Assembly: GCA_024232855.1 (NCBI GenBank)
Contig: JAAEPH010000181.1
Location: forward strand, 1 to 34,822
Direction of reading: 5' to 3'
DNA from: Gammaproteobacteria bacterium
GTDB lineage: Bacteria; Pseudomonadota; Gammaproteobacteria; GCA-001735895
DNA length: 34,822 nt
Under the pieces are notes generated by a model, which was not told the origin of the DNA, made no database searches, and saw only the letters and a program-made list of their open reading frames with translations. How positions within the stretch are numbered: the first letter of the stretch is position 1; every line of letters begins with the position of its first letter. This document shows, in pieces, positions 13,739-33,973 of the stretch. The translations under genes were made by a program, and so were the position numbers.

Positions 13739-14119
13739 TTATTGCTCCAATTCATCACGATTGCCGACCACGACCCTGATTTCGTCGGCGGCCTGCGTGC
13801 CTGCAACCAGGCGAATGTAATCTGAGGGCACCCCCAACGATATCAACCAGTCTCGCAGTTCCGCGGCCCATAACTCACCGCTGTCCTCGCCCGGGTAGCG
13901 CACCACCATGATGGCGTTCTCCGACCTGCCCCAGTAATGGACCGCAGCCCGCAATGCGCTGAGCTCGGCAATTACTTCACCACTGCGTGGCCTTGCCCAT
14001 TCATCGGCGCTGAGGGTATAGATTCGCGCCGTACTGGCCGCCACCTGAGCGCACAGGAACAGGCCGGTAATGCAGACACTACTTATTATCAATCTTCGGT
14101 AATTCTTTCTGGTTTTCAT
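13739..14119 (-). CDS. Small exported protein of unknown function between yhdP and tldD
   Basis: A 126-residue protein with a clear N-terminal signal peptide: basic start MKTRKNYRR, then a hydrophobic stretch LIISSVCITGLFLCAQVAA and likely cleavage after Ala-Ala. The mature part is about 98 residues. It contains a strand-helix-strand pattern (AIMVVRYPGEDSGELWAAEL, then LRDWLISLGVPSDYIRLVAG, then IRVVV) loosely similar to an OmpA-C/peptidoglycan-binding-like fold, though no diagnostic residues can be confirmed. The ATG at 14119 is preferred over the TTG at 14122. The gene overlaps the 3' end of yhdP by 41 nt and stops 6 nt before tldD, so the three are almost certainly co-translated. A periplasmic role next to envelope genes is inferred from position only. 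Confidence 0.75.
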   Translation of the reverse strand: MKTRKNYRRLIISSVCITGLFLCAQVAASTARIYTLSADEWARPRSGEVIAELSALRAAVHYWGRSENAIMVVRYPGEDSGELWAAELRDWLISLGVPSDYIRLVAGTQAADEIRVVVGNRDELEQ

Positions 14120-17100: not shown

Positions 17101-17879
17101 ATCCGGTAACCCGACATCCCGACCCACAACTCTCCATCGAGAGCGCCGCTTTTTACTCCATGTGTATCGATATCGAACAAACGCGCCAACGGCGCCAATT
17201 GCAAATCGGTTGAATTGATATAAATCAGGCTGGAAGCGGGATCGACTACCGACTTGAGCAAAACGCCACGGCCGAACTCGTCTGGCAGGGCCGCGCTTAG
17301 CTGCGTCAGAAACTGGCCCTCGCGATGATTGATCTGGGCCTCGACCCGATCGAACTGATGCGTCGCCTGGTATTTCTGATCGTGCACAATCAGCCGGCGC
17401 AGGTTCAGTTTCAGATAGCGCGGCAACAGCCCTAGAAGTTCCGAAAAACCGGGCAGATCGACATCGCCCGCGCCCGCGCCAATATGGTACTCATTGATCA
17501 ACCATCGCCCCGACATATCCTTCGTCAGCTCAAGCTTCTCCAACTGACCGCTGATTTCCAGCGCCACCGGCGCGCGTTCGCGCAAGCTGCTCCAGAAATC
17601 GAATTCGACTTCGAGGCGGTCGATGAACAACGGTTGCGATCGATCGGGCAGGTTTACCGAAACATTTTCGATGCGCAGTATCGGGTTGAAGCGATTCATG
17701 CTCCCGCTAACGCGGTTGAAAACAATGCCCTCGTGGACATCGCGCTGCAGCAGATAATCGATTTCGGGTTTGAAGTACTCGATATTGCTGATCACCAGGC
17801 GTATGCCGCCCATGGCCACGGCGAGCAGGACTATGGCACTGAACAACAGTGCGAAGCTGATTCTCTTTAACAATTCCAT
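14079..17879 (-). CDS. yhdP: YhdP family AsmA-like inter-membrane phospholipid transport protein
   Basis: A 1266-residue protein, the length of E. coli YhdP. It has an N-terminal transmembrane anchor (about 8-30, ISFALLFSAIVLLAVAMGGI) followed by a very long periplasmic repeat of beta-strand-rich segments, as in AsmA/TamB/YhdP bridge proteins. In E. coli, YhdP works with TamB and YdbH to move phospholipids from inner to outer membrane. The C-terminal AsmA-like region includes SGSFTWPAPLYGFTLENVSG, DGVLNNVEPGSGRFVGLLSL and YDQTIRVTPKIRHTLPLVGA, which are typical of the family. The gene begins 18 nt after the rng stop codon, and the rng-yhdP-tldD order is conserved in gammaproteobacteria. The last 41 nt overlap the small exported protein gene. 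Confidence 0.93.
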   Translation of the reverse strand: MELLKRISFALLFSAIVLLAVAMGGIRLVISNIEYFKPEIDYLLQRDVHEGIVFNRVSGSMNRFNPILRIENVSVNLPDRSQPLFIDRLEVEFDFWSSLRERAPVALEISGQLEKLELTKDMSGRWLINEYHIGAGAGDVDLPGFSELLGLLPRYLKLNLRRLIVHDQKYQATHQFDRVEAQINHREGQFLTQLSAALPDEFGRGVLLKSVVDPASSLIYINSTDLQLAPLARLFDIDTHGVKSGALDGELWVGMSGYRITAVNGNLLLKQAVLQVSDDKPPLSIDYHAHFNAVGDHDSWRINSKIDRLGINGQNVPGFNAQVKIPLAEDTRLISAWIDRLQLSSLPVVAGQWLHNTINEPIEQGKLKGLLQDLVFEMDLENPRLAHMAMRATDLSSDQFRKFPGATNLNADLVIGNSRLAARVYGEAISLDFGEFFRAPLYFDSVALDAVVNLQPSGNLLVMADNIEVRNRDASVSGRLRLETDGDHAPFMFLRANFSDAQASSAGKYFPITLLPAKTMEWLDRGIIDGFAPAGDLQFHGRLRRIHDFENNREGEFFVDFAVERADVFFAPGWLPAKNGAGRVLFHNLGVEFDLDSVSYERLDGIRANGRIANFTKASLELNISADAPTSDALRIWGDTPVGERFSDILANLHDLEGSVSSEIEVLLPLGGNQTERSVDVNVDFKNAALQAKNWGLDLSQITGRLNVTEDSLAASQVTARFFGDPVEIDASSENTSVNTRVTVQGNLESSNLLKRLPRQLAENVKGHSDWQIGIDIAGASAQVEKPFLHINAASNLQDTQITLALPMRKSGPDIARISADIDFFPEQVRFETSLGKNFRGRGLLNTDADREYRLDALQLAFSSPLEEELSPGINLHGRIAELPVDEWKKFFTDAGENDLTILNSVDLDVDRAEIYGRRLEAVDFALHRTDRFFYGFIDAPILRGSFAAPRQPSTSNPVIIDLEYLVIDKLEQEPDYAAITPSDLPAFRLVSNSLRYHDMMFSDLSIEARPRKGTLVVDKFSLRLDSIQIAGKAKWEYDATSQQHLSSIKGTIKGPQLGQAMAGLGFGDSMTDGNIDLSGSFTWPAPLYGFTLENVSGKSRMKITDGVLNNVEPGSGRFVGLLSLSAIPRRLALDFSDVLIDGMGFDKIDGNYRIANGVLFTEDTRMDGPAAKIKISGKTGIMDRDYDQTIRVTPKIRHTLPLVGAVAAGTTVGWGLLLLQNLFKKVIDDAVEVEYRVSGSWDDPKIDLIKAVDENQKELPKIDNK

Positions 17880-17897
17880 TTCAACTTCTAGTGACCA

Positions 17898-19379
17898 CTA
17901 GACCGGCACCACGTCGTAGGATTCCTGCGATAAATGCGCCTCTACCTGTAGTTTGACCGGAATTTTGATAAAGGTTTCCAGCTCGGCCAGATTAGCTGCT
18001 TCTTCGTCCAGCAAACGGTCGACGACGTCCTGGTTCGCCATCACCAGCAGCTGCTGCGCCTCGTCGTAAAAACGCGCCTCGCGCAGGATTTCACGAAAAA
18101 TTTCATAACACACGGTTTCCGTGGTCTTGAGTGACCCCCGCCCATGACAAATCTTGCAGGATTCGCAGAGCACGTGCTCGAGGCTTTCTCGCGTCCGCTT
18201 GCGCGTCATTTCGACGAGGCCGAGCGGGGAGACCTCGCAAACCTGGGTCTTGGCGTGATCCTTGGCCAGGTATTTCTGCAGTGAATTCAATACCTGGCGC
18301 TTATGATCGTCGCGCTCCATGTCGATAAAGTCGATGATGATGATGCCACCCAGGTTGCGCAGCCTGAGCTGTCGCGCAATCGCCTGCGATGCTTCCATAT
18401 TGGTCTTGAAAATGGTTTCTTCAAGATTTTGATGACCCACGAACGCACCGGTATTGATATCGATAGTCGTCATTGCCTCGGTTTGATCGATGATCAGGTA
18501 TCCCCCCGACTTCAGGCCTACCTGGCGCGCCAGCGCGCGCTGTAACTCGTCGTCTATGTTGTACAGGTCGAACAGCGGCCGATCGCCCAGATAGTGCTCG
18601 ATCCGCGCCGGCAGATCGGGAATATATCGCGCGGCAAAAGCACTCATCTTCTGAAAGGTTTCACGCGAGTCGACTTTCACCAGGTTAGTATCGCCCCCGA
18701 CCATGTCGCGCAGGGTGCGTATCGATAGCGGCAAATCCTCGTGGATTATGGATCCCGCCTCAATCGCCTCGGTGGATTCCAGCAATGCCCCCCAAAGCTT
18801 CGACAAAAAGGCCATATCGCGTTGCAGCTCCTTTTCGTCCACGCCTTCGGCCGCGGTGCGAATGATACATCCACCGATCTGGTTTTCGGCCCGGCAGGCC
18901 TGCAGCAGATTTTTCAGGCGCTCGCGTTCATCTTCGTCTTCGATCTTCACCGAAATACCGATGCTGGATGAATTCGGCATGTAGACCAGGTAACGCGAAG
19001 GCACCGAAATGCTGGTCGTCAGGCGCGCGCCCTTGGTCCCCATCGGATCCTTCTCCACCTGCACCAGTAATGTCTGACCTTCGTGCAACAACTCGTTGAT
19101 CGCGGGGCGGACAGCTGTGTCTTCGTCGCCATCGCCCGCGAATGCACCAACATCGATATCCGACACGTGCAGGAAACCGGCCTTTTCCAGGCCGATATCG
19201 ACAAATGCCGCCTCCATCCCGGGCAGCACCCGGTTGACCTTTCCCTTGTATATATTGCCAACGATTCCACGACTGCTTTGACGCTCGATACTGACTTCCT
19301 GCAGGGTGCCGTTTTCAATGATCGCTACCCGGGTTTCCTGGGGCGTTATATTGATCAGAATTTCTTCATTTCTCGTCAT
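17898..19379 (-). CDS. rng: Ribonuclease G
   Basis: A 493-residue endoribonuclease of the RNase E/G family that trims the 5' end of 16S rRNA and starts decay of some mRNAs. Domains in order: S1 RNA-binding fold (about 37-125, GIVGNIYKGKVNRVLPGMEA), 5'-sensor/RNase H-like region, DNase I-like catalytic domain with Asp307 (TTIDINTGAFVGH) and Asp350 (IIIIDFIDM), and the zinc link C-E-S-C-K-I-C at 405-411. The long C-terminal scaffold of RNase E is absent, so this is RNase G. The ATG at 19379 gives MTRNEEILINITPQETRV, matching relatives; the TTG two codons earlier is less likely. It follows maf by 2 nt and precedes yhdP. Confidence 0.96.
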   Translation of the reverse strand: MTRNEEILINITPQETRVAIIENGTLQEVSIERQSSRGIVGNIYKGKVNRVLPGMEAAFVDIGLEKAGFLHVSDIDVGAFAGDGDEDTAVRPAINELLHEGQTLLVQVEKDPMGTKGARLTTSISVPSRYLVYMPNSSSIGISVKIEDEDERERLKNLLQACRAENQIGGCIIRTAAEGVDEKELQRDMAFLSKLWGALLESTEAIEAGSIIHEDLPLSIRTLRDMVGGDTNLVKVDSRETFQKMSAFAARYIPDLPARIEHYLGDRPLFDLYNIDDELQRALARQVGLKSGGYLIIDQTEAMTTIDINTGAFVGHQNLEETIFKTNMEASQAIARQLRLRNLGGIIIIDFIDMERDDHKRQVLNSLQKYLAKDHAKTQVCEVSPLGLVEMTRKRTRESLEHVLCESCKICHGRGSLKTTETVCYEIFREILREARFYDEAQQLLVMANQDVVDRLLDEEAANLAELETFIKIPVKLQVEAHLSQESYDVVPV

Positions 19380-19381
19380 AA

Positions 19382-19957
19382 TCAAAATATCTCGATAGCG
19401 GCGTTACCCAACAGTTCGGCGGTCTCTAGCAGCGGCAATCCCATGACTGCCGAATAACTCCCCTCGAGCTGCTCGATAAACACCGCAGCCTTACCCTGTA
19501 TAGCGTAGGCGCCGGCTTTATCCATCGGTTCCACCGTCGCACAGTAGGCTTCTATCTCTCGTTGCGACAGATTCCTGAAGCGAACCCGGTTACAAGTCAG
19601 TCGAAATTCCAGCCTTTGTGGCGTCGCTAGGGCGACCGCCGTCAGCACCTGGTGCTGCCTGCCGGAAAGCTTTTGCAAAATACAGCGGCAATGGCTTCGA
19701 TCAGCGGGTTTGCCAATAATATCACCATCGAGCTCGATAGTAGTATCCGCCGCCAGTACGACACAGGAATCCTGCGTTTTGATAATTTCGGAAGCGGCCA
19801 CCAGGGCCTTGTTTCGCGCCATGCGGCAAACGTACTCGTGCGGCGATTCCGAGGCCAGCCTGCTCTCGTCTATATCGCTGACGTAGACCTCGTATTCGAC
19901 ACCGATCTGACGCAATAATTCGGCGCGGCGAGGCGATTGGGAAGCCAGATAAATCAT
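19382..19957 (-). CDS. Maf/YhdE-type nucleoside triphosphate pyrophosphatase
   Basis: A 191-residue Maf-family enzyme. YhdE-type members hydrolyse dTTP and UTP (and some modified nucleotides) to monophosphates, a house-cleaning role linked to division control. Motifs are IYLASQSPRRAELLRQIG at the start, the phosphate-binding SQSPRR, VLAADTTIELDGDIIGKPAD (catalytic Asp in ADT), MDKAGAYAIQGKAAVFIE and GSYSAVMGLPLLET. The ATG at 19957 is the family start; upstream in-frame sequence to 20125 overlaps rlmH and is not coding in this frame. It lies between rlmH (32 nt away) and rng (2 nt), as in other gammaproteobacteria. Confidence 0.93.
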   Translation of the reverse strand: MIYLASQSPRRAELLRQIGVEYEVYVSDIDESRLASESPHEYVCRMARNKALVAASEIIKTQDSCVVLAADTTIELDGDIIGKPADRSHCRCILQKLSGRQHQVLTAVALATPQRLEFRLTCNRVRFRNLSQREIEAYCATVEPMDKAGAYAIQGKAAVFIEQLEGSYSAVMGLPLLETAELLGNAAIEIF

Positions 19958-19989
19958 TACGGCATGATAGCCCGAAAGCCCGGAGGCGC

Positions 19990-20460
19990 CTATTCGCGAT
20001 GGTAGGGATGACCCTGGCATATCGTCCAGGCACGGTACAGCTGTTCCAGCACCACTACCCTGACCAGAGCATGGGGCATTGTCATCCTGCCCAGTGAAAC
20101 CCGTTGCTGGCAGACCTCGATACATTGCCGCGACAAACCATCCGGGCCGCCAATAATCAGGTTGACACGGGGGAATTCCTGCATCCAGTGTCGTAGCTGT
20201 TTCGACCAGTCCTCGCTGGTCCAGGACTTCCCCTTGTCATCGAGCGCGATGTTGAGACTACCGGGCTGCAGCTTAGCCAGGATCAATTCGGATTCGCGCT
20301 CAAGCCGGCGCATTGCCGACTGTAGCGACTTGCCCGTCGCCAGCGGCACGGTGACGAGCGTTGGCGTCAGTTCGCGCGGCATTCTTTTCAGGTAGTCGGC
20401 GCAACCGGCATCGATCCAGGCCGGCATTTTCTGCGCCACACTAATCAACTGAATCTGCAT
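19990..20460 (-). CDS. rlmH: RlmH, 23S rRNA pseudouridine-1915 N3-methyltransferase
   Basis: A 156-residue SPOUT methyltransferase (E. coli RlmH has 155) that methylates pseudouridine 1915 in helix 69 of 23S rRNA on assembled 70S ribosomes. The trefoil-knot SAM-binding segment is visible as VNLIIGGPDGLS. The C-terminus SLGRMTMPHALVRVVVLEQL followed by YRAW...GHPYHRE is diagnostic. The start ATG at 20460 gives MQIQLISVAQKMPAWIDAG, matching relatives. It lies 10 nt after rsfS, so the two ribosome-associated genes are probably translated from one message. Confidence 0.97.
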   Translation of the reverse strand: MQIQLISVAQKMPAWIDAGCADYLKRMPRELTPTLVTVPLATGKSLQSAMRRLERESELILAKLQPGSLNIALDDKGKSWTSEDWSKQLRHWMQEFPRVNLIIGGPDGLSRQCIEVCQQRVSLGRMTMPHALVRVVVLEQLYRAWTICQGHPYHRE

Positions 20461-20470
20461 GACGGCACGG

Positions 20471-20830
20471 CTAGCTGGCAGCCAGTTCCTCACCCCAGAG
20501 CTTTTCCAACTCGTAGTAAAGGCGCACATTGGGCAGCATGACGTGAACCACGACATCACCAAGATCGACCAGTATCCATTCGCCCACTTCTTCGCCCTCG
20601 ACGCCGACCGGCGGCTGATTCGACGCCCTCGCAGCCTCGACAACCGCCTCCGCGATGGCGCCGACATGGCGCGTGGAACGGCCGCTCGCGAATATCATGT
20701 AATCGGTGAAACTCGCGATCTCGCGCACGTCGAGGGTCACCACATTGTCCGCCTTGAGCGCTTCCAATGCCTCTAGCGTCATCTTTTTGCTGGCTTCAGC
20801 CTGCAACTCGCTGGGTTTTGAATCAGTCAC
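20471..20830 (-). CDS. rsfS: Ribosomal silencing factor RsfS
   Basis: A member of the RsfS/Iojap family that binds ribosomal protein L14 on the 50S subunit and blocks subunit joining under starvation. Motifs are ADNVVTLDVREIASFTDYM, FASGRSTRHVGAIAEAV, GVEGEEVGEWILVDLGDVVV and HVMLPNVRLYYELEKLWGEE. The GTG at 20830 gives 119 residues and covers the N-terminal helix found in relatives. The ATG at 20782 (103 residues) would start inside this helix, so GTG is favoured. With GTG the gene overlaps the end of nadD by 8 nt, implying coupling. Confidence 0.92.
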   Translation of the reverse strand: MTDSKPSELQAEASKKMTLEALEALKADNVVTLDVREIASFTDYMIFASGRSTRHVGAIAEAVVEAARASNQPPVGVEGEEVGEWILVDLGDVVVHVMLPNVRLYYELEKLWGEELAAS

Positions 20831-21443
20831 CTGGTTTCCGATATAAGTTATGTTGATCAATGTAATCCGCCACCGGCGGCGCCAGATATTGCCGCGGAGT
20901 CTCGCCTGCATGCAGTGCCGCACGCACGGCGCTCGAAGAGCAGTCGATGGCGTCGACGCGCAGCAACAGGATGCAGCCGGCGGCTCGATTCGATAATTCA
21001 ACCGCCGAATCGACCCGCCGCTCAGCATATAAATCCTGTTCGACCTCAAAGCCCGGACGGCAACAGACCACCAGGTGCGCCAAAGCAAGGATTTCGCGTG
21101 GTGATTTCCAGCCGGCAAAACCGTTAAACGCATCTGCTCCCAGCACCAGCGCCAGGCTGGCATCGGTAGTGCGGCGGATCTCGCGCAAGCTGTCAACGCT
21201 ATAGGATGGTCCCTTGCGTTCGAGCTCGAGGGTGTTTAGAGCGAGATTGGAATCGCCTTCGATAGCCAGGCTGATCATGGCGCAGCGATGTTCGGGCGAG
21301 GCATGCGGCTGATCACGATGCACGGGCAGCGCGCAGGGCATTAACTGCAACTGTTGTAAACCCAGCTGCGCCGAAACCCGGGTCGCGATCTGTAAGTGCC
21401 CACGGTGAATCGGATCGAAGGTTCCGCCTAAAATCCCTATCAT
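20823..21443 (-). CDS. nadD: Nicotinate-nucleotide adenylyltransferase NadD
   Basis: A 206-residue cytidylyltransferase-like enzyme that converts nicotinate mononucleotide and ATP to deamido-NAD in NAD synthesis. The nucleotide-binding signature MIGILGGTFDPIHRGHL is at the very start. The second signature is CSSSAVRAAL near the end, with a Ser-rich S-S-x-R type loop. The C-terminus PPVADYIDQHNLY is typical. The ATG at 21443 gives the standard N-terminus; a TTG two codons upstream overlaps proA. It lies 2 nt after proA and overlaps rsfS by 8 nt. Confidence 0.96.
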   Translation of the reverse strand: MIGILGGTFDPIHRGHLQIATRVSAQLGLQQLQLMPCALPVHRDQPHASPEHRCAMISLAIEGDSNLALNTLELERKGPSYSVDSLREIRRTTDASLALVLGADAFNGFAGWKSPREILALAHLVVCCRPGFEVEQDLYAERRVDSAVELSNRAAGCILLLRVDAIDCSSSAVRAALHAGETPRQYLAPPVADYIDQHNLYRKPGD

Positions 21444-21445
21444 TA

Positions 21446-22735
21446 TCAAGCGCGCAGGTTTCCGTCCCCGAAAACAACGTACTTCTGCGATGTCAGTCCT
21501 TCGAGACCAACCGGTCCGCGCGCGTGCAGCTTGTCGGTACTGATGCCGATTTCCGCTCCCAGACCATACTCGAAGCCATCGGCGAAGCCGGTCGACGCGT
21601 TGACAATGACCGAGCTCGAATCGACGCGACGCAGAAACTCGCGCGCGTGGCTGTAATCTTCGCTGACGATGGCGTCGGTATGCTGCGAACCGTAACGGTT
21701 GATATGATCGATCGCCTGCTGCAGGCCGTCGACGATGCGAATCGATAGAATCGGCGCCAGGTACTCCGCGTACCAGTCGTCCTCGACGGCCGGTTTAAAA
21801 CTTGCGCCGTCAAGCTTGCAGCATTGTTCACAGCCGCGTAACTCGATGCCATGGGCGCTCATCTGTTCCACGATCCGCGGTAAAACCCGGGGCGCAACGG
21901 CGCCGGCGACGAGCAGGGTTTCCATCGCATTACAAACCCCGTAACGCCGCGTCTTGGCGTTGATTGCAATATCAACCGCCTTCTGCAGATCGGCGTGATC
22001 ATCGATGTAAACGTGGCAGACACCGTCGAGATGCTTGATCACCGGGATGCGCGAATCGTTGCTGATACGTTCGATCAGCGATTTCCCGCCGCGCGGGATA
22101 ATGACATCGATGCTGTCCTGCATCTGTAACATTTGCCCGACCGCCGCGCGACCGGGGGTATTGACGACCTGCACCGCGGACTCCACCATCTCGGCCTGTT
22201 GCAGCCCCTGCTGGATACAGCTGTAGATCGCCTGATTCGAATGCAGCGCCTCCTTGCCGCCCCTGAGGATACTCGCGTTACCCGACTTCAGGCACAAGGC
22301 CGCGGCATCGATAGTCACGTTTGGACGCGACTCGTAAATGATGCCGATAACACCCAGCGGAACCCGCATTTTGCCTACCTGGATGCCCGAAGGCCGATAG
22401 CGCAGATCACTGATTTCACCGACCGGATCAGCGAGGCCGGCAACCTGTTGCAATCCTTCGATCATCGCGTCAACCCGGGCCTGGTCGAGCTTGAGCCGTT
22501 CCAGCATCGCCGCGGAGATACCTTCCTTGCTGGCCGCGTCCAGGTCGCGGCGGTTTTCCTGCAAGATAAATTCGCACCGCTGATCCAGCACCGCGGCGAT
22601 GGCGAGCAATGCCCGGATTTTATGCCGGGGATCGGCATGCGCAAGAACGCCCGCGGCCTGCCGCGCAGCCTGCCCTAGCGCGGACATATAGCGGCTTACA
22701 TCCGCATCGGCTTCGTTATGTAATGCTGCACTCAT
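21446..22735 (-). CDS. proA: Gamma-glutamyl phosphate reductase ProA
   Basis: A 429-residue aldehyde dehydrogenase-superfamily enzyme that reduces gamma-glutamyl phosphate to glutamate semialdehyde in proline synthesis, using NADPH. The catalytic Cys268 is in [14 protein letters not shown]. Also visible are [45 protein letters not shown] and the C-terminal [20 protein letters not shown]. Length is slightly above E. coli ProA (417) because of an N-terminal extension. ProB is not in this window; it is commonly found with obgE elsewhere in pseudomonad-like genomes. It starts 1 nt before the holA stop and 2 nt upstream of nadD. Confidence 0.97.
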
Positions 22736-22736
22736 A

Positions 22737-23747
22737 TCATTTACCGTTCACACCACTAAAATCGACTACCAGCGACTTGATCTCGAACCAGTCCTGGTCC
22801 GGAAATTCACTGCCCTGCTGCCCTTTTCCGAGGCGATCTAATGTAGCACAGCTTTGTAACAAACGCTCAATCTGCGGGCTCGCCAGGCGCGACATCGCAG
22901 CCTGGTAAAGGCGCTGTTTGTTGCGCCAAATACGCAGCTCCTGCCAGATACGATCGCCCAGCGCACCGCTGCGTTCGGCCAGCTTGAGTCGATCCAGTTG
23001 CTCCAGCGAACTTTGCAGGGCCCAGCGCAACTGGGCGGTTGCGTAGCCTTCCGCGCGCAGGCTTTTAAGGATCCTGAGCGCGCGTCCGGTGCTGCCGGCG
23101 AGGCAAGCGTCGACCAGCAGGAAGTGACTGTAGCGCGCCGACTGCGCAACCGTTGCTTCGATGGTTTCGAAATCGATAAGGCCATTGTCGACGAATCGAA
23201 TCGAAAGCTTTTCCAGTTCCTGGTCCGCCGCCAGCAGGTTACCCTCGGTGCATTCGGCCAGGAACTGCGCCGACTGCCCGTCGATGGTCAATCCCCTCGA
23301 ACGCGCACGCTGCATCAACCAGTCTGCCAGCTGATTATCGTAAACGGGCTTGAGTTCGACCATCTCGCCACAGGACTGTATCGCCTTGCACCAGCTCGTG
23401 TTACGCGCTTGCCGGTCGAGTTGCGGGGTTACGAATATATAGACGTTTCCTTCGCCCGGATTTTCACACAGGCCCTGTATCGCCTTGCTGCCCTGTTGCC
23501 CGGGTTTCCCATTCGGCAGGGTCACGATGCGACACTTGCTGGTCGAAAACAACGACATCATGTCGCCTTCCCCCAGCAACTCCTGCCAGTCGAACCCGGT
23601 ATCGGCCTGGAGATTCAGAATATCTTCGAAACCGGCGCCGCGTAACGCGCGTCTGGCCTCGTCGAGCCAGTCGCGGGTCAATAACGGTTCGGCGCTGGCG
23701 AGCAGATAAACCGGCTTCAGCTGTTGTGTAATCTGGGACCCTTGCAT
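22737..23747 (-). CDS. holA: DNA polymerase III delta subunit HolA
   Basis: A 336-residue clamp-loader subunit (E. coli delta 343) that opens the beta clamp. Family pattern: the start [23 protein letters not shown]+-like domain with degenerate nucleotide site (delta does not bind ATP), [20 protein letters not shown], the [20 protein letters not shown] helix typical of delta, and C-terminal collar domain. It is followed immediately by proA-nadD-rsfS-rlmH. In many gammaproteobacteria lptE lies directly upstream. Here about 4.8 kb with the ABC/VWA operon separates the two. Confidence 0.94.
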
Positions 23748-23846
23748 CGGGCCGTAATGCTATCACAGTAACGGCTTTGAACCCTCGTCATGACTGCGAA
23801 AAAATGATCCCGACCCGAAACCGGACACGGCAGCGGAGATTGTTTT

Positions 23847-23864
23847 TGCAGGACTGCTCCTACA
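23847..23864. repeat. Imperfect hairpin in the short gap between the permease gene and holA
   Basis: TGCAGGA, loop CTGC, TCCTACA forms a 7-bp stem with one mismatch. On the minus strand it reads TGTAGGAGCAGTCCTGCA, which resembles a dispersed proteobacterial intergenic repeat starting TGTAGGAGC. On that strand it is followed by an A-run, not a T-run, so it is not a terminator for the permease gene. Nothing else is seen in 23748-23868. Confidence 0.35.
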
Positions 23865-23868
23865 GAAT

Positions 23869-25080
23869 TTAAAGGTCGCGCAATCCGTCGGAAGGCTGGA
23901 TACGTGCGGCGCGCATTCCACCGAGGACGGCTGCCGAAACGGCGATAACGACAGTCAGCGCCAACGCCCATAGAAAATGCTCGATGAGCAAAAAGCAAAG
24001 TACGCGATCGAGATTGATCCGCGGCGCCAGGAAAACGTTGATGAGGTACTCGAAGGCGAGATAAACCAGGACCGCAAGCAACCAGCCGAGAACCGCCGTG
24101 TAGCAGGATTGCAACACCGGGAACATGACGATTCGCCCACCCTTGAATCCAACCAGGCGCAATACGCTCAGGTCCTTGCGCTTGCGGTCTACATTTGCCC
24201 ACAGGCTTGCCCCCAGGGAAAAGGCGAAGCCGATGGCGCCGACACAGGCGATAATCCAGAAGATGACGGAAAGATTCCGATCGATCGACCGCACAGTCGA
24301 AATTTCGGCGACGTTGGCCTTCACCCGGGCGCCCTCCTTTTCAAGATCGGAAAACAGGTTCTCGACGTCATAAATAGAGCGCGCATACAGGCGAAACGAG
24401 GGGTACATACGGCCCTCCGGGCCGCCGGTATTACCCTGCCAGCCGAATGCCTCGATGGCGCGTCCGTCCTTGAACTGTTCACTGGCGATTAAAAGTTCAA
24501 GATCGACAAAGGCGACATTGCGCGAGATGACACCGGCAGCGGCTACATCGATGACCTCCAGTGGCAGGTGCACGCGTTCGCGCTTCCCCTGAAACTGCCT
24601 GGCGAGACTGGCATCGATTTCATCGCCGGAATTGACATTCAGCTTTTTCGCGGCGGCATGGCTGAGGACCACCTGGAAATAGTTCCGCGGTTGCCGGGTC
24701 GCTCCGCCAAGCAGCGGATCTCCCGGCGCGGTAGCGAGCAGTTCCGTCGACACGATACGCTTGGCGCTGGTACTCTTCAGTTGTATGGTCGCGGCCAGCG
24801 CACGCGTCCTCGGAATAATAAACTCGACATCGTCCCGCTGGCGCATGCCTTCGATCCACGCGTCGTCATAACGGCCACTGCCAATCGGCTTGATCTCGCG
24901 GTTGGCGGGATTCTCCACCAGTTCGTGAATCATTGTCGTGACGATTCCAAATTTCAGCCCAAACAGAATCATCATCGGCGCGAGCACCGACGCCAGCGCC
25001 AGAATGAAACAGCCTGACATCCGCCACTCGTGGCTGTAATCACGAAAACTGAGCCGAATGATGTTGCTGAACTGCGTCAT
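23869..25080 (-). CDS. ABC transporter permease, FtsX/LolC-like (TagS-like)
   Basis: A 403-residue membrane protein with FtsX/MacB topology. One helix lies near the N-terminus (about 24-48, CFILALASVLAPMMILFGLK), then a large periplasmic domain of about 220 residues, then three C-terminal helices beginning at IFWIIACVGAIGFAFSLG. The cytoplasmic coupling segment DRKRKDLSVLRLVGFKGGRI is typical of FtsX-domain proteins, where RLVG contacts the ATPase. The C-terminus ARIQPSDGLRDL is the usual 'P.e.LR..' ending. Such permeases act mechanically on periplasmic partners or extract lipoproteins (LolCE), rather than transporting small solutes. The start codon overlaps the ATPase stop by 1 nt, so one transporter is formed with it. 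I infer similarity to TagS because of the VWA partner upstream. Confidence 0.85.
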   Translation of the reverse strand: MTQFSNIIRLSFRDYSHEWRMSGCFILALASVLAPMMILFGLKFGIVTTMIHELVENPANREIKPIGSGRYDDAWIEGMRQRDDVEFIIPRTRALAATIQLKSTSAKRIVSTELLATAPGDPLLGGATRQPRNYFQVVLSHAAAKKLNVNSGDEIDASLARQFQGKRERVHLPLEVIDVAAAGVISRNVAFVDLELLIASEQFKDGRAIEAFGWQGNTGGPEGRMYPSFRLYARSIYDVENLFSDLEKEGARVKANVAEISTVRSIDRNLSVIFWIIACVGAIGFAFSLGASLWANVDRKRKDLSVLRLVGFKGGRIVMFPVLQSCYTAVLGWLLAVLVYLAFEYLINVFLAPRINLDRVLCFLLIEHFLWALALTVVIAVSAAVLGGMRAARIQPSDGLRDL

Positions 25081-25805
25081 CAGTCGCTGAAGCTCGACTG
25101 GTAAACCTTGCCGTCATCGACCGCCACGGCTTCCTGCCTGAGGGTACGCAATTCCATTTTATAAACATGCGCCCAGTCGTGGCTCGCGGTGATCAGCGTA
25201 ATCTTGAGCCCGCGAATGACCTCCATTACCACCGCCATTATCTTGTGCGCGGTAATCGGATCGAGCGCGGCGGTCGGTTCGTCGGCGATCAGGATTGACG
25301 GCCGATGCGACAGGGCGCGCGCAAAGGCCGCGCGTTGGCGTTCACCGGCGGACAGCAGTCCGGGCAACTTGTCGAGCTGACGACTGATGCCGAGCACCTT
25401 CGAAATCGAGTTTATCGAATCGTCATCGGGCAACTTCAGCAGCCTGCGGGGTAACTCGATATTTTCGCGCACGGTCAGATAAGGCAGGAGGCCGCCGGAC
25501 TGCAGCACATAGCCAATGTGCTGCTTGCGGATCTGGGAAAGCCGGCTGTAGCGGTCGCGCCGCCACAGGCCCGCGACATCGTGGTTATCGCCCTGCACAG
25601 GATGCAGGCTAAACTCATCCGATGTGTCGGGGCGCAATATCAGCGCGAGCATGTCCAGCAGCGTGCTCTTGCCGCAGCCACTGTGCCCTATCAGGGCGAT
25701 ATTTTCCTCGGCACGTATCTGAATCCTTGGTACCTGCAGACGAAAACCGACGCCGTCGATGAGACGCTCCTTAACGACGTTCTCCAGTGAATAGACGACC
25801 GTCAC
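25080..25805 (-). CDS. ABC transporter ATPase, LolD/TagT-like
   Basis: A 241-residue nucleotide-binding subunit. The Walker A motif GHSGCGKST is at 40-48, the Q-loop at Gln102 (YVLQSGGLLPYLTV), Walker B ILIADEP with the catalytic Glu at about 171-177, D-loop AALD, and the switch His209 in TASHD. The ABC signature reads LLSAGERQRAAFARAL, so the canonical LSGGQ is changed to LSAGE; LSxGE forms are found in LolD/MacB-type ATPases. Translation starts at GTG 25805, 6 nt after the VWA gene, with only a weak ribosome-binding site, suggesting coupling. It pairs with the downstream FtsX-like permease. Confidence 0.88.
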   Translation of the reverse strand: MTVVYSLENVVKERLIDGVGFRLQVPRIQIRAEENIALIGHSGCGKSTLLDMLALILRPDTSDEFSLHPVQGDNHDVAGLWRRDRYSRLSQIRKQHIGYVLQSGGLLPYLTVRENIELPRRLLKLPDDDSINSISKVLGISRQLDKLPGLLSAGERQRAAFARALSHRPSILIADEPTAALDPITAHKIMAVVMEVIRGLKITLITASHDWAHVYKMELRTLRQEAVAVDDGKVYQSSFSD

Positions 25806-25811
25806 GGGTCG

Positions 25812-27770
25812 TCAGGGGAGCAGTTCGAGTGCAACCGGGAAAACCGAATTACCGTTGACCGGTCCACCGCCAGGGGTCACCCACAAATCGGTATGATCGT
25901 GCAGGGCCTGGTAGTAGTTGATCTTGCTCTCTAGCCGGTGCATGAACTCGATCTGTACCTTGGCGGACCACTCTTCCCAGGTTTCCAGGGTCAGGTTCAT
26001 GACCTCGCCGGTATAGGGTAAATCCTCGATATACTCGCGCATGTAACCCATGTCGGCGAGATTGGCGCCCGCACCGGAGGTGCTGCCAGCAACCGAAGAA
26101 GGATCTCGACTCACCGTCGCCGCCAGGCTTTTCAGATCGTCGATAAAATTCTGCGGGCTGAGCACGCCTTCCTCGGCGAGTTCCAGCACCTGCTGCATGA
26201 CATACTTGAGGTCGCTGAGCTGATCCCGGGTCAGGAGGACACGGACATCAACCGCCGAACGTCCGGGATTGAGAAAGTCGCGGTCAACCATCCAGGCGTC
26301 GAAAACCGCCGGGAGCGGCTGCCCCGATTCCTTTTGCAGGTAGCGCATGCGCAGCGCATGACCGAGCTTGGCGACACGGCCCTGTAATTGCGAGAGTTGC
26401 GTCTGACCGGACTGTTGTTGCGGCAGCGGCAACGGCGGCACGCCGTTGGTGGTTGTCAACACCTGCTGCGTAATCTGGTTGGCGAGCACTTCCAGCACGT
26501 TACCGAACTCGTCGACCTGGCCGAGACTGACACCGTAGTAAAAATCCCCGATTCCCGGGTAGTAGGACAACTGCTTGTACCGGGTTTCGGCGGCTTCATG
26601 ATCCGCCGCAACCGCGGGCGTGCGTAGATGCAGCACCCAGATCGAAACGCCCTTGTCAAACGCAAACTGGCGCAGAGCCTGGGCGCTGAGCCGGGTTTCG
26701 CTCAGCGAGTCATGGCTATCACGCGGCCCCGCATCGGTTATCAGCACCACGTAACGCGCATCGAACTGGGTCCAGTCGGTTTCCTCGATCGCCGATTTAA
26801 TGCCCGCGTAGGCGTCTTCGCGAAAGTCCCGACTGGATACCTGGGACGGGTTCAGCGAATTGACGCGCTCGAAGAATTGCTTGACGTCGGTGCCCTGCTG
26901 CAAGCTGACATAACGACGGGTCAGGTACTCGAGTTCCGGCACCTCGTCGATGTTATCGCGGTAAGCCGTCAAACCAAAACCAACCTGGTTGGTCAACCCC
27001 TGCGTTTCGATCGCCGAGTACACTTTAGCCACGGCTTCACGCGTGCGATCGATGTACGGACCCATCGACTGGGTGGAGTCGATGACAAAGTGGATTCCGC
27101 TGCGATAGCTGCGTTTTTCTGGCGGGGTGGCGGCAGAGCCTGACCCCGGGTTGGTGTCTTCCAGCGGTACACTGGCAATTTCCAGCAGGCGCGCCTGTTC
27201 GTTGCCGAGGTAAACGTCTTCATGCTGCTTGATTGGCACCAGGTAAAAATTTCCGCGGATATCGAGATGAGCCTCAGGCTGGATGGCGGTCACCGGCGAA
27301 TCCGCGGGCATCTCGTCGTTTACGACCGAGTCGTACAGCGCCTGGTAGCCTTGCTTGTCGTAATCCTCGACCAGCTTCTGCAAATCATCCTTGTTATTGA
27401 ACATCATGACCCGCTGTATATCCTGGGGATCCTTGAAGGAGACGGTCAACGCCTGGTTCCAGGCGATGGCCTTGTCGCGCTTCACCCAGCCCGCGATCTT
27501 GCCGAAACTGCCGTAACCGACCTTGAGCCATTCACTGCCTCTCTCGTAAACGTAGAGCACGCTGAACGGAATGATTTCGCTGGAAGCGGCCGACGACGCC
27601 ACCGGGATTTCGTAGAGACGCGCCTCGGGGATGCTGAGAACGCGTTGATACAGGGCCTTTTTGCCTTCCATCAATAGCGGCTTGTCGTCGGCAAACAGAT
27701 TCCCCGCATGCACGACCAGCAAACACATCAGCAGCAGACTAAATTTGGTTTGACCGGACTTGATGTGCAT
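25812..27770 (-). CDS. Exported SH3-like and VWA-domain protein (PpkA C-terminal-like)
   Basis: A 652-residue secreted or periplasmic protein. A signal peptide is clear (residues 1-27, MHIKSGQTKFSLLLMCLLVV then HAGNLFA). An SH3-like segment follows at about 45-105 (RLYEIPVAS... VLYVYERGSEWLKVGYGSFG ... GWVKRD). The von Willebrand A domain starts near 222 (SGIHFVIDSTQSM) with a MIDAS site D231-S-T-Q-S235 and Asp346 in VVLITDAGPRD. About 270 residues of mostly helical C-terminal sequence end at ALELLP. Wording and order resemble the periplasmic part of PpkA-type kinases, which carry a VWA domain, but no kinase domain is fused here. The start at 27770 is preceded by AGGT. It is the second gene of a four-gene operon with a Sel1-repeat protein and an ABC pair, implying a membrane signalling or envelope-remodelling assembly. 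Confidence 0.8.
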   Translation of the reverse strand: MHIKSGQTKFSLLLMCLLVVHAGNLFADDKPLLMEGKKALYQRVLSIPEARLYEIPVASSAASSEIIPFSVLYVYERGSEWLKVGYGSFGKIAGWVKRDKAIAWNQALTVSFKDPQDIQRVMMFNNKDDLQKLVEDYDKQGYQALYDSVVNDEMPADSPVTAIQPEAHLDIRGNFYLVPIKQHEDVYLGNEQARLLEIASVPLEDTNPGSGSAATPPEKRSYRSGIHFVIDSTQSMGPYIDRTREAVAKVYSAIETQGLTNQVGFGLTAYRDNIDEVPELEYLTRRYVSLQQGTDVKQFFERVNSLNPSQVSSRDFREDAYAGIKSAIEETDWTQFDARYVVLITDAGPRDSHDSLSETRLSAQALRQFAFDKGVSIWVLHLRTPAVAADHEAAETRYKQLSYYPGIGDFYYGVSLGQVDEFGNVLEVLANQITQQVLTTTNGVPPLPLPQQQSGQTQLSQLQGRVAKLGHALRMRYLQKESGQPLPAVFDAWMVDRDFLNPGRSAVDVRVLLTRDQLSDLKYVMQQVLELAEEGVLSPQNFIDDLKSLAATVSRDPSSVAGSTSGAGANLADMGYMREYIEDLPYTGEVMNLTLETWEEWSAKVQIEFMHRLESKINYYQALHDHTDLWVTPGGGPVNGNSVFPVALELLP

Positions 27771-27791
27771 CGCGTTACCTGTTGACTATCC

Positions 27792-28412
27792 CTATTGAAT
27801 ATTAAGCAGCAGCTGCCTGGCTTCCGGATTACCCGTTGTCGCGGCGTCTTGCGCCCATTGGCGCAGCTTGTCGATACTCTCGGCGGCAGCCGGCTGCCCC
27901 AGCTCGGCCGCTTTGCTGTACCACTTGTAGGCCTGGATGACATCGGCCTGGTCGAGCAATGAATTCTCGGCCTGGAACAGCAATGGATCCGACAATTGCG
28001 CCATCATCATCATGGCCGGCACAAAATTTTCACGCGCCGCGAAAAAATACAGCAGATGTGCATCGGCAAGGCTGCCCTCATGCTGGAATTTTTTCGCCTT
28101 TTCGTAAACCTGCGCCAGTGGATAGGGCTGGCCGGCGGCACGTATCTGTCCGATATACTCGCGTGCGCGCATGCCGGGGGGCAGCAGCAGGCTGCGTTCT
28201 ATGGTGCCCTCAGACGAACTGCCTTCGGACAAATTGCTTTCGGGCGAACTGCCTTCTTCGATGACCTGGCTGTCTTCGGCTTTACCCGGTACACGCGCAT
28301 CACGACGATCGCCACCAAGAAAAACAAACAGAATCAGGCCGATAACAATCAGCGCAATCCAGGTTAGTGGATTTCGCCGACCCCGTGGCGCCTGCTCATT
28401 TAACTCTGACAT
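27792..28412 (-). CDS. Membrane-anchored Sel1-repeat protein
   Basis: A 206-residue protein with a short cytoplasmic tail (MSELNEQAPRGRRNPL), one transmembrane helix (about 17-34, TWIALIVIGLILFVFLGG), an acidic and Ser-rich linker (EEGSSPESNLSEGSSSEGT), and a helical C-terminal domain with a recognisable Sel1-like unit (VIQAYKWYSKAAELGQPAAA). Upstream helices (LAQVYEKAKKFQHEGSLADA, HLLYFFAAREN) look like a second, degenerate unit. Sel1/TPR-like repeats bind protein partners, so this may tether the VWA protein or ABC transporter. The ATG at 28412 is chosen because the upstream in-frame sequence is basic and unlike a protein. No strong Shine-Dalgarno precedes it. It is the first gene after the promoter at 28489-28517. 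Confidence 0.75.
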   Translation of the reverse strand: MSELNEQAPRGRRNPLTWIALIVIGLILFVFLGGDRRDARVPGKAEDSQVIEEGSSPESNLSEGSSSEGTIERSLLLPPGMRAREYIGQIRAAGQPYPLAQVYEKAKKFQHEGSLADAHLLYFFAARENFVPAMMMMAQLSDPLLFQAENSLLDQADVIQAYKWYSKAAELGQPAAAESIDKLRQWAQDAATTGNPEARQLLLNIQ

Positions 28413-28488
28413 GTCATGCTTCGGTGATTTCGATGTTTTATGTTTCGTTATTCGGCCGCGAGGTGGCCGGCGCTGACGGCATCGGCGA

Positions 28489-28517
28489 ATTATAAACACT
28501 TGTAGTCAGCGGGTAAA
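28489..28517 (-). promoter_or_regulatory. Sigma70-like promoter for the Sel1-VWA-ABC operon
   Basis: On the minus strand a perfect TATAAT -10 box lies at 28494-28489. It is preceded after exactly 17 nt by TTTACC (28517-28512), which matches the -35 consensus at four of six positions. Initiation near 28482 would give a leader of about 70 nt. The -35 box touches the end of a 14-bp direct repeat. Confidence 0.55.
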
Positions 28518-28546
28518 TTTAACTGCCCAATTATTTAACTGCCCAA
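28517..28546. repeat. Near-tandem 14-bp direct repeat (16-bp period)
   Basis: ATTTAACTGCCCAA occurs at 28517-28530 and again at 28533-28546. The copies overlap the -35 region and upstream flank of the operon promoter. They could be paired regulator-binding sites or a simple duplication. Confidence 0.75.
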
Positions 28547-28548
28547 CA

Positions 28549-28578
28549 AAATGAGTGTTAACTAAATGAGTGTTAACT
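28549..28578. repeat. Perfect 15-bp tandem duplication at the lptE stop codon
   Basis: AAATGAGTGTTAACT occurs at 28549-28563 and again directly at 28564-28578. On the minus strand the junction of the two copies creates the TAG that ends lptE. With one copy, lptE would read four residues further before TAA. Confidence 0.85.
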
Positions 28579-29053
28579 GCCTGATCAACTGATCGAACAG
28601 GGCCTTTTCCAGGTCCCGCGTCACCGTATCTTTCTCGCGATCCGATGAAAGCAGGTTATCGTCATCCAGGGAAACATCCTTCCGCTGCGACAGGGTGCTC
28701 AACGGCACTACGGTCTTGCCCTCGGCGGATTTTACACTGAAATCGAGCTGGCGCGTAATACGCTTGACGTTTGCGCCCGTGCCGGCACCGGTCGCCATCT
28801 GCCGATCCGGTACTTTTTTCAGGTAGACGCTGAGTTTTACCGCGCCGCTGTCGGGCTGTTCAACCAATGTGGCGCCGGCCTGGGTCAGGCGGCGCTGCAA
28901 GGCTTTTAGCTGAGACTGGTTGAAACCGTTGTCGGACAGGTAAATCGATGCCAGCTGGTCCGGTAGATCCGCGGTTCCAGCCAGCCTGAAACCGCAGGCC
29001 GACAGGTTCAGAGCGAAGCAGAGCATCAATATAAGCGGGCTAGTCCTATGCAT
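28562..29053 (-). CDS. lptE: LptE, LPS-assembly outer-membrane lipoprotein
   Basis: A 163-residue lipoprotein that plugs the LptD barrel and helps deliver LPS to the cell surface. The signal peptide MHRTSPLILMLCFALNLSAC has a lipobox L-S-A-C with Cys20, followed by GFRLAGTADLPDQLASIYL, typical of LptE (formerly RlpB). The central region has the mixed alpha-beta pattern of the family (LSVYLKKVPDRQMATGAGTG ... ITRQLDFSVKSAEGKTV). It begins 4 nt after leuS, and the ATG at 29053 gives a proper lipoprotein signal. Its stop codon is produced by a 15-bp tandem duplication that shortens the tail slightly. In many relatives holA follows directly; here the Sel1-VWA-ABC operon intervenes. Confidence 0.92.
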   Translation of the reverse strand: MHRTSPLILMLCFALNLSACGFRLAGTADLPDQLASIYLSDNGFNQSQLKALQRRLTQAGATLVEQPDSGAVKLSVYLKKVPDRQMATGAGTGANVKRITRQLDFSVKSAEGKTVVPLSTLSQRKDVSLDDDNLLSSDREKDTVTRDLEKALFDQLIRQLTLI

Positions 29054-29057
29054 CGAT

Positions 29058-31562
<2,505 letters not shown>

Positions 31563-31583
31563 TTAACCTGTGTATTGCAGCTG
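31563..31583. repeat. Solo copy of the element A/B terminal repeat
   Basis: TTAACCTGTGTATTGCAGCT plus G matches the left end of element A (11371 onward) at 17 of 21 positions, including the first eight bases and TATTGCA. It lies in the 106-nt gap between leuS and lnt. No convincing inverted partner is seen nearby; the CTAG at 31612-31615 is at the right orientation but the bases before it match poorly. Confidence 0.4.
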
Positions 31584-31606
31584 TGTATTTTCCCGGTCGC
31601 CAGCCT

Positions 31607-31620
31607 GCCGGCTAGCCGGC
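31607..31620. repeat. 14-bp perfect palindrome across the lnt stop codon
   Basis: GCCGGCTAGCCGGC is self-complementary and contains the TAG stop of lnt (minus strand). On the plus strand it is followed by TTTT, but on the strand of lnt transcription no T-run follows. Its role is unclear. Confidence 0.55.
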
Positions 31621-33129
31621 TTTTGCCTTACGCAACGCAAGTAATAGCAACAGTGCTATTGGCAGCAGGCCAACCAGCCACTGGAGCTTAGCGAAATAAA
31701 AGAACGGCGTGACTCCGCTGCGGCCCTGCACTACCTCGGTGATCGACTGGGTTTTGAACTGTTCGGTGACGGATAACACCCTGCCCTTGTGATCGATAAA
31801 AGCGGTGATACCGGTATTGGTGGCGCGCATCATCATGCGCTCGGTTTCCTGGCTGCGCATCTGCGCGATCTGCATGTGCTGGTGCGGCGCGGTCGAGTTA
31901 CCGAACCAGGCATCGTTGCTGAGATTGACGAGCAGATTTGCATCCGGTAACGCAAGCTGCACATCGCGGCTGAAGACATCTTCGAAACAGATCGAAACAC
32001 CCAGTTGTAAACCGTCGACCTGCATTAATTTCTGCTCTTTGGGGCCCGCGGTCAGATCCGAATAGGGAATGCTGATCAAACCGCTGAGTAAATCGAGCAG
32101 CCAGCGCATCGGGTAGTATTCGCCGAACATGACCAGGTGACGCTTGTGGTAGAGGCCGCGTTCCCGGCCGAGCTGAATGACGCTGTTGTAAAACTGGTTT
32201 TGCGCGTTACCGGCGAACACGAGGCCACTGATTATGGCGCTACCATTCTCCAGCGCCGCCGCCTGTAGTGGTGCTAGCAACGAAGTTTCGATATCGCTCG
32301 AATGGCCGGGCAAAGCGGTTTCGGGCCAGATGATCAAATCGCTGTCCCAGTGCCGGCCAGTCTCGCGCCAGTAGGTATTGAAGATGTTTTGCCGTTGATC
32401 ACGGCGCCATTTTAGTTCCTGCGGAATATTTCCCTGCACCATGGTGACCTTGAGCGGTTGCGCCATCGGTTCGCTCCATTCCAGCTGTTGCAGCAGCCAT
32501 CCCGACAACGGGATCACCAGTATCACGGCCAGTTTCAGGACCAGCACCGGGTAGCGACGCTCACGCACGGCGACGATCAGCGCCACCGCCATCAGGATAC
32601 ACAGTGCGCCGATGCCGTAGACGCCCACCAGTGGCGCAAAACCGGCGAGTGGCGACGGGGTTTGCGAGTAGCCCAGGCTCAGCCAGGGCATACCGGTCCC
32701 GAACCAGCCCTTGACCCACTCCAGGCCAAACCACAGCAGCGGCAGCAACCACAGCCCTCGAGTACCCAGCAGGCGTTGGGCGCAGCCCCAGAAAACCAGG
32801 ATGAGTCCCGGCGTCAGTGCGAGATAGATCGCCATCAACCCGGTAATACCGCCCGCGACCAGCGGTGGCGCCATGCCGAAGTCGTGCAGGCTGTTGTAAA
32901 TCCAGTACACGCCGCAACCAAAGTAGCCGATTCCGAACAACCAGCCGCTGGCGAACAGGCGCTGTAGCGAGGATTCGTCTCGGTTTAGCCAGAACAGGCA
33001 GGCTGGAGCCAGAATCGCCAGCGGCCACAGGTAAAAAGGCGCAAACGCGAGCACCAGTATTGCGCCCAGCAACAGGGACGAGCTCAGTCTGATATAAGAG
33101 GATCTGAAACTAATGACGTTCAGCGGCAC
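31612..33129 (-). CDS. lnt: Apolipoprotein N-acyltransferase Lnt
   Basis: A 505-residue inner-membrane enzyme that adds the third acyl chain to the N-terminal Cys of lipoproteins. The N-terminal half has about seven hydrophobic segments (for example SSSLLLGAILVLAFAPFYLW, GLMAIYLALTPGLILVFWGC). The nitrilase-like periplasmic domain carries the catalytic triad in IWPETALPGH (Glu), YHKRHLVMFGEYYP (Lys) and GVSICFEDVF (Cys). A final helix, LVGLLPIALLLLLAL, ends the protein. Length matches E. coli Lnt (512). The GTG at 33129, inside the end of corC (20-nt overlap), is the most plausible start: it is preceded by a GGTGG-like site and gives a normal N-terminus. The corC-lnt pairing is standard, and the lipoprotein LptE encoded downstream is one of its likely substrates. 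Confidence 0.94.
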   Translation of the reverse strand: MPLNVISFRSSYIRLSSSLLLGAILVLAFAPFYLWPLAILAPACLFWLNRDESSLQRLFASGWLFGIGYFGCGVYWIYNSLHDFGMAPPLVAGGITGLMAIYLALTPGLILVFWGCAQRLLGTRGLWLLPLLWFGLEWVKGWFGTGMPWLSLGYSQTPSPLAGFAPLVGVYGIGALCILMAVALIVAVRERRYPVLVLKLAVILVIPLSGWLLQQLEWSEPMAQPLKVTMVQGNIPQELKWRRDQRQNIFNTYWRETGRHWDSDLIIWPETALPGHSSDIETSLLAPLQAAALENGSAIISGLVFAGNAQNQFYNSVIQLGRERGLYHKRHLVMFGEYYPMRWLLDLLSGLISIPYSDLTAGPKEQKLMQVDGLQLGVSICFEDVFSRDVQLALPDANLLVNLSNDAWFGNSTAPHQHMQIAQMRSQETERMMMRATNTGITAFIDHKGRVLSVTEQFKTQSITEVVQGRSGVTPFFYFAKLQWLVGLLPIALLLLLALRKAKAG

Positions 33130-33973
33130 GCCCACCGCTATCGATAACCTGGTACAGGTGGACCTGGCGGTTATCGGCACGCATCACCTTGAAGGTCAAA
33201 GCGTCGAGGGTAATCGATTCACCGCGTTCCGGAAGATAGCCGATTTGACGCAGCAGGTAACCGCCGATGGTTTCGACATCGTCAATTTCAAACTCGGTGT
33301 CGAAATATTCATTGAATTCCGGCAGTGGCGTCAATGCGCGCACGCTGTACCGATTGGAGCCATGCGGCTGGATGTCGGCCTCTTCATCTTCGTCGTCGTA
33401 TTCGTCATCGATCTTGCCGACGATTTGTTCGAGCACGTCTTCGATGGTAATCAATCCGGAGACACCGCCGTACTCGTCGACGATCATCGCCATGTGACTG
33501 CGATTGAGTCGAAATTCCTTTAACAACACGTTGAGGCGTTTGCTCTCCGGAATAAACGATGCCGGGCGGATGTATTCATTGATTTCGAAATTCTGACCCG
33601 GTTGCTGCGACAGCGACAGCGTCAGTAAATCCTTGGCCAGCAGGATACCGACCAGGTCGTCCTTATCGTCGTCGATTACCGGAAAACGCGAATGCCCCGA
33701 TTCGGTAATTTTATCGATTATCTCGGTGAAGCCGTCTTCGTGATCCAGCACCACCATTTGACCGCGCGGTATCATGATGTCGCGTACATGCATGTCGGCA
33801 ACCTGCAGCACGCCCTCGATCATGGATAGCTCGTCGGCGCCAATTAACTCGCTCGAGCGAAGATTTTTTAACAACTCCAGCAGCTGCTTCTGATTCTGGG
33901 GTCCACTGGAAAAAATGTTATGGATACGATCCAGCCACCCCATTGACGACCCGCCGTGTTCAGCGTCAGCCAT
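33110..33973 (-). CDS. corC: CorC/YbeX, CBS-domain magnesium and cobalt efflux-associated protein
   Basis: A 287-residue cytoplasmic protein (E. coli YbeX/CorC 292). Two CBS domains bind adenosyl nucleotides: VRDIMIPRGQMVVLDHEDGF ... GHSRFPVIDDDKDDLVGILL at about 63-120, and a second ending HMAMIVDEYGGVSGLITIED near 165-185. An acidic stretch DDEYDDEDEEAD then leads to the C-terminal CorC/HlyC domain (ETIGGYLLRQIGYLPERGES). The membrane DUF21 domain of CorB-type proteins is absent, as expected for CorC. The ATG at 33973 has AGGA 6 nt upstream; the GTG at 33985 is less likely. The gene overlaps lnt by 20 nt and follows ybeY by 26 nt. Confidence 0.95.
   Translation of the reverse strand: MADAEHGGSSMGWLDRIHNIFSSGPQNQKQLLELLKNLRSSELIGADELSMIEGVLQVADMHVRDIMIPRGQMVVLDHEDGFTEIIDKITESGHSRFPVIDDDKDDLVGILLAKDLLTLSLSQQPGQNFEINEYIRPASFIPESKRLNVLLKEFRLNRSHMAMIVDEYGGVSGLITIEDVLEQIVGKIDDEYDDEDEEADIQPHGSNRYSVRALTPLPEFNEYFDTEFEIDDVETIGGYLLRQIGYLPERGESITLDALTFKVMRADNRQVHLYQVIDSGGRAAERH

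Follow-up and report, generated by a model that had tools for sequence, protein, structure and literature searches.

What does a VWA protein do next to an ABC pair when the kinase with which such proteins are linked in type VI secretion (T6SS) loci is missing? This question is raised by a four-gene operon in a gammaproteobacterial assembly (4.15 Mb, 97% complete), found in a window of 34,822 nucleotides that is an entire contig. The features of the locus are, in the direction of transcription:

28562..29182, minus strand: lptE, upstream neighbour (context only)
28489..28517, minus strand: sigma-70-like promoter match TTTACC-17-TATAAT, between lptE and sel
27792..28412, minus strand: sel, TM-anchored Sel1-like protein, 206 aa
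25812..27770, minus strand: vwa, exported VWA protein, 652 aa
25080..25805, minus strand: abc, TagT-like ABC ATPase, 241 aa, GTG start
23869..25080, minus strand: permease, FtsX-type type VII ABC permease, TagS-like, 403 aa
23806..23825, minus strand: terminator-like stem followed by ATTTTTT, between permease and holA
22737..23747, minus strand: holA, downstream neighbour (context only)

The first-pass annotation of this DNA had described four co-directed genes between lptE and holA with a 1-nt overlap and gaps of 6-21 nt, and the coordinates agree with it: all four genes lie on the minus strand, sel and vwa are separated by 21 nt, vwa and abc by 6 nt, and abc and permease overlap by 1 nt. The distance from the end of lptE to sel is 149 nt, and that from the end of permease to holA is 121 nt. 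The candidate promoter is suggestive through its position only, as the number of sigma-70-like matches was not above chance. The surroundings of the operon (14079-33180) are well supplied with genes for outer-membrane biogenesis, namely lnt, lptE and yhdP, among which leuS, holA, proA and a gene for RNase E/G are interspersed. At 4280-11370 a RimK-like ATP-grasp gene and an AstE/AspA-like gene are followed by an HlyD-AcrB-type RND efflux pair.

When the phylum was searched with a mixed alignment, some VWA matches fell inside frames of about 1,020 aa. The gene order at those loci was TssJ-TssK-TssL-TssM-(TagF)-PP2C-PpkA-TagT-TagS-TagR, as in the P. aeruginosa H1 cluster, and they are called Pseudomonas-type here on the basis of this order. 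PpkA from such an H1-T6SS locus has a Pkinase domain at residues 8-249, a TM helix at about 325-343 and a VWA part at 378-992. In a direct BLASTP comparison, residues 30-652 of the vwa protein aligned to PpkA 378-992 with 33% identity over 643 aa (E 1e-109), the alignment reaching the last vwa residue. The suggested relationship to the part of PpkA that follows the TM helix thus extends over the whole length. Pfam VWA_4 scored over its cut-off, and TM prediction gave a signal peptide and no other TM segment. Judged from its sequence, vwa is the periplasmic half of PpkA in the form of a free exported protein.

The structural model of the vwa protein was of moderate quality (mean pLDDT 70) and poor in the C-terminal part. 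It contains an integrin-I-type VWA core at about 220-440, for which the fold search, limited to this core, gave a best Z of 18 and an rmsd of 2.5-2.8; a PDB sequence search with the protein returned nothing relevant. The MIDAS residues D231, S235 and D346 were invariant in 54 of 54 sequences, the position of T233 being occupied by T or S, and MIDAS residues were kept in every stand-alone vwa sequence examined. With regard to the SH3-like N-terminus that had been proposed, a beta-rich model and an SH3_3 match in one homologue (E 0.45) point weakly in that direction without confirming it, whereas the exported VWA part stands.

The ABC pair leads to the same system. The abc product was assigned to ABC_tran by Pfam, with Walker A GHSGCGKS and signature LSAGE, and it is 47% identical to TagT of the Pseudomonas-type H1-T6SS locus (E 3e-64), while the permease is 41% identical to TagS of the same locus (E 6e-91). 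The Walker A motif was kept in the stand-alone-form ATPases examined. Pfam FtsX (PF02687) scored over its cut-off in the permease, which has 4 TM segments, the first and second of them separated by a periplasmic domain. In its model (pLDDT 86) a periplasmic domain likewise accompanies four long TM helices, and the fold resembles LolE, YtrF, MacB and FtsX (Z 22-14); a PDB sequence search matched YtrF and, weakly, LolC. With this topology and the FtsX match, the modelled permease would belong to the type VII ABC (mechanotransmission) superfamily. When an ATPase tree was rooted with E. coli LolD, FtsE, YbbA and MacB, every VWA-linked ATPase fell into one clade apart from this outgroup (100/100). 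The tree was less clean than that of the VWA proteins, since the Tistrella T6SS ATPase sat beside the stand-alone ones. The pair is accordingly closer to TagT/TagS than to LolCDE, FtsEX, YbbAP or MacB, as first supposed. It shares with LolCDE, FtsEX, MacB, YbbAP and YtrEF the permease fold of 4 TM segments plus a periplasmic domain, but differs from them in that its partner is a VWA protein and its ATPase lies outside the LolD/FtsE/YbbA/MacB clade. MacB itself was rejected, as it would be one fused ATPase-permease and here there are two genes with a 1-nt overlap and an ATPase in a separate clade. A defence system was rejected as well, PADLOC having given generic ATPase matches alone.

The sel protein is predicted to have about 15 cytoplasmic residues, a single TM segment at 16-34 and a periplasmic Sel1-like tail. 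The membrane anchor of the earlier description is thereby retained, but its Sel1 repeat was found by Pfam as a single match below threshold (17.1 bits against a cut-off of 30.7), so that the name rests on homologues. One of these is the T6SS kinase of Tistrella mobilis pTM1, whose tail is 35% identical to sel over 86 aa (E 6e-11). A profile built from 82 sel proteins scored 39.8 bits on the Tistrella kinase and up to 61.9 bits on Srf-linked TM proteins. The link to the kinase tail is good yet partly generic, because an unrelated generic Sel1 protein in the operon's own genome scored 23.8 bits. By these comparisons sel seems to correspond to the TM-Sel1 portion at the end of a split T6SS kinase, but lacks the kinase domain.

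Three types of locus can be set beside the operon. It has the order vwa-abc-permease of PpkA-TagQRST from the P. aeruginosa H1-T6SS, and the VWA, TagT-like and TagS-like parts are homologous by sequence. Unlike that system, the operon is without kinase, PppA, TagR, recognisable TagQ and linked Fha or T6SS, its VWA protein is free and exported, and its TM-Sel1 protein is separate. The T6SS cluster of Tistrella mobilis pTM1 comprises PP2C, kinase, VWA, ABC, FtsX and SUMF1 genes, kinase and VWA being separate. This split PpkA locus resembles the operon in having a TM-Sel1 gene followed by separate genes for the VWA protein, ABC ATPase and FtsX permease, but it has a kinase domain, PP2C, a SUMF1/TagR-like gene and a full T6SS. 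The SrfABC-associated VWA-ABC-SUMF1 locus, carried by Klebsiella, Leclercia, Cereibacter plasmids and others, shows the same order of a TM protein with Sel1-like tail, VWA protein, ABC ATPase and permease, again with no kinase domain. It differs from the operon by the presence of SrfA, SrfB, SrfC, an FGE/TagR-like protein and lipoproteins, and its TM protein bears a different cytoplasmic domain that is absent from sel. PpkA and TagQRST genes beside srfB-srfC and without T6SS machinery were reported in 2013 from host-associated Deltaproteobacteria (PMC3608642), and T6SS-control genes adjoining srfABC are known from Xenorhabdus (PMC6950479). A form free of kinase, TagR and Srf proteins was not found described in the literature, within a limited collection.

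As a unit, the four genes are conserved. In a set of 57 genomes of relatives, almost every congener had full-length vwa, which was also present in the window's family, and every complete locus of this family kept both the order sel-vwa-abc-permease and the place between leuS-lptE and holA-proA. Sets of the same four genes occurred at different genomic places in other families. A class sample of 369 genomes contained a full-type VWA protein in 26, and in 21 of these it was of the stand-alone form. A survey of the neighbourhoods of homologues showed that the VWA protein and the ABC pair co-occur in other genomes, abc and permease being on the same strand in 82 of the 86 loci with sufficient flank. 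No ordered neighbour besides the four genes recurred in 51 wider loci. Chance assembly of unrelated genes is ruled out by this co-conservation. In the VWA tree, 31 stand-alone sequences made up one side of a branch with 100/100 support, apart from the T6SS and Srf-linked forms. On the evidence of these sequences the stand-alone form is a branch of its own in many marine and sediment gammaproteobacteria.

The absence of a linked kinase, phosphatase, TagR and secretion genes, claimed for the window at the outset, extends to the relatives. None of the four operon proteins has a kinase domain. Among 124 stand-alone loci (some of them two fetches of one place), each checked within the fetched flank, none had a TagR-like FGE protein, PP2C phosphatase, SrfA, SrfB, SrfC or T6SS gene, and none had a linked kinase, the single kinase match being the sel protein itself. 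Both matches to the Srf-linked TM protein in this set were also sel proteins. Near these loci nothing matched the lipoproteins of Srf and T6SS loci as a counterpart of TagQ, such lipoproteins being fast to diverge. In its own genome (G000) the operon is accompanied by one FGE match, which is unlinked and covers the central region only (104-308 of 517). SrfB is absent from this genome and from 24 others with the stand-alone form.

Taken as a whole, we give a probability of about 50% to the explanation that the operon represents a branch of the PpkA-TagST envelope module which has no kinase and stands alone. The homology part of this reading is nearly certain as far as sequence comparison can make it so, and the original description of the operon as a kinase-less relative of that module was largely right. 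We infer a role in the mechanotransmission of envelope damage; the envelope stress sensing or lipoprotein handling suggested at first pass would be possible functions.

In one alternative, the ABC pair would act like Lol proteins, extracting a lipidated or hydrophobic inner-membrane substrate and delivering it to the VWA protein. The best matches of the permease model were LolE/LolC and MacB (Foldseek E 4e-17, Z 22), although all type VII permeases have this fold. The operon lies beside lptE in the family of the window, and lnt follows beyond leuS in the window itself; the link to lptE is local, because the neighbours of the operon differ outside this family. A precedent is E. coli YbbAP-TesA, in which a type VII pair is reported to extract hydrophobic compounds for a periplasmic partner (PMC12646458). 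However, the ATPase is only 32% identical to LolD and falls into a separate clade, and the permease reached 24.5 bits with the LolCE model TIGR02212, whose cut-off is 362. Together with 114.8 bits against 307.8 for TIGR02211, these values led us to reject a LolCDE operon, and we regard a Lol-like handler as unlikely.

Less favoured still is a PpkA-like sensor that signals through an unlinked Hanks-type Ser/Thr kinase. The genome search for such a kinase, proposed at first pass, returned nine strong Pkinase matches, and at 1e-15 at least one match was found in 20 of the 22 module-bearing genomes tested and none in two. Against this, no Hanks kinase was found in a congeneric genome with the whole operon (G014, 99% complete), its best Pkinase match at a loose threshold being one of 16 bits over 35 residues, and a further module-bearing genome (G298, 97% complete) had only one partial match of 35 bits at the same kind of threshold. 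Moreover, no kinase was seen in the fetched flank of the 124 stand-alone loci, and sel exposes merely some 15 residues to the cytoplasm. These points make the alternative improbable.

It is very improbable that the module helps to regulate a T6SS whose genes lie elsewhere in the genome. A sheath gene was found in 9 of 39 other module-bearing genomes, but the search of the operon's own genome gave no VipB/TssC (T6SS sheath) gene, and with the remaining 30 of 39 this makes 31 of 40 module-bearing genomes without one. As a general partner, T6SS, whether linked or unlinked, is refuted by these counts, although such a partnership may hold in single species. Within the limits of draft genomes, neither T6SS nor a Hanks kinase appears to be a general requirement, because 30 of 39 genomes had no sheath gene and G014 and G298 no full kinase match. 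Four congeners that have a T6SS sheath gene (G010, G011, G014 and G024) contain no full-length VWA protein other than that of the stand-alone form.

Degeneration from a former T6SS or Srf locus is hardly credible as the origin of the operon: the genes that accompany the core in those two larger loci are missing and sel resembles a kinase minus its catalytic domain, but the unit is kept intact in nearly all congeners and many other families, its frames are open with conserved MIDAS and Walker A motifs, and the VWA tree shows one deep branch without scattered losses.

For the stand-alone PpkA-TagST-like module a mechanism can be outlined, which we put forward tentatively. In type VII ABC pairs, ATP hydrolysis drives the movement of periplasmic parts. 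The TagS/TagT-like pair would be a homodimeric machine of this type, in which ATP turnover moves periplasmic domains and no small solutes are pumped. It may capture or release the MIDAS-containing VWA protein together with the membrane-tethered Sel1 protein; the VWA protein is suggested as its object because the two are constantly together, with or without TagR. In the PpkA version, the complex would gate the cytoplasmic kinase. The stand-alone version carries no output domain. Its effect is therefore probably exerted in the envelope itself: in response to envelope damage, it could use ATP to assemble, release or repair a target in the outer membrane or periplasm. Envelope damage is a first guess, because outer-membrane damage is what P. 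aeruginosa senses via TagQRST-PpkA (PMC11881912). The signal may differ from that in P. aeruginosa, since TagQ and TagR are required there (PMC6657622) and no counterpart was found here.

TagS/TagT mutants of P. aeruginosa retain partial activity (PMC6657622), and the VWA domain of PpkA was proposed as a sensor in 2011 (PMC3224232). The kinase-less branch bears on the roles of both in T6SS retaliation. Once kinase, TagR and T6SS are stripped off, what is kept is the VWA protein, the ABC pair and the TM-Sel1 protein. The VWA protein and TagS/TagT may thus be an independent envelope machine that exists beside, and perhaps before, T6SS, with modular outputs and, in the kinase-less form, a mechanical output in place of phosphorylation; we consider this to fall just short of an even chance. 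If it is true, the real partner of TagST in P. aeruginosa would be the VWA domain of PpkA and not TagR. The prediction from the kinase-less branch is that the VWA domain is the object of TagST action, and the branch offers a simple, secretion-free system for finding signal and output.

The cytoplasmic partners of the core vary among loci: a Hanks kinase (fused in the Pseudomonas type, separate in Tistrella), an AAA_22 ATPase, the Srf-linked domain, or none. The AAA_22 ATPase was found on two Methylomonas-labelled MAG contigs (L103:6813-9920 and L106:6813-9923), N-terminal on the VWA protein together with a TM segment, the ABC pair being divergently transcribed. On a Klebsiella plasmid (CP061360.1; L145:12013-13980) a gene annotated as 'serine/threonine protein kinase' gave an end-to-end VWA match, with no space left for a kinase domain; apparently it was named after PpkA, and the same kinase-less VWA protein may underlie reports of 'ppkA' in srf loci. 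One locus (L027) is probably a broken Srf-type locus, because its genome has SrfB on another contig. Another (L122:2205-10759) encodes TM-Sel1, VWA, ABC and permease proteins and an FGE-like protein with a Sel1-like tail, followed by a weak MotA/ExbB-like match and a predicted membrane protein, in a stretch without T6SS or Srf genes. Finally, a genome that has the stand-alone form (G169) carries a second, divergent VWA-ABC-permease set (L119:531-9823), in which the permease frame gives two matches, as a duplication or an interruption would, and of which the nearest relative is L157.
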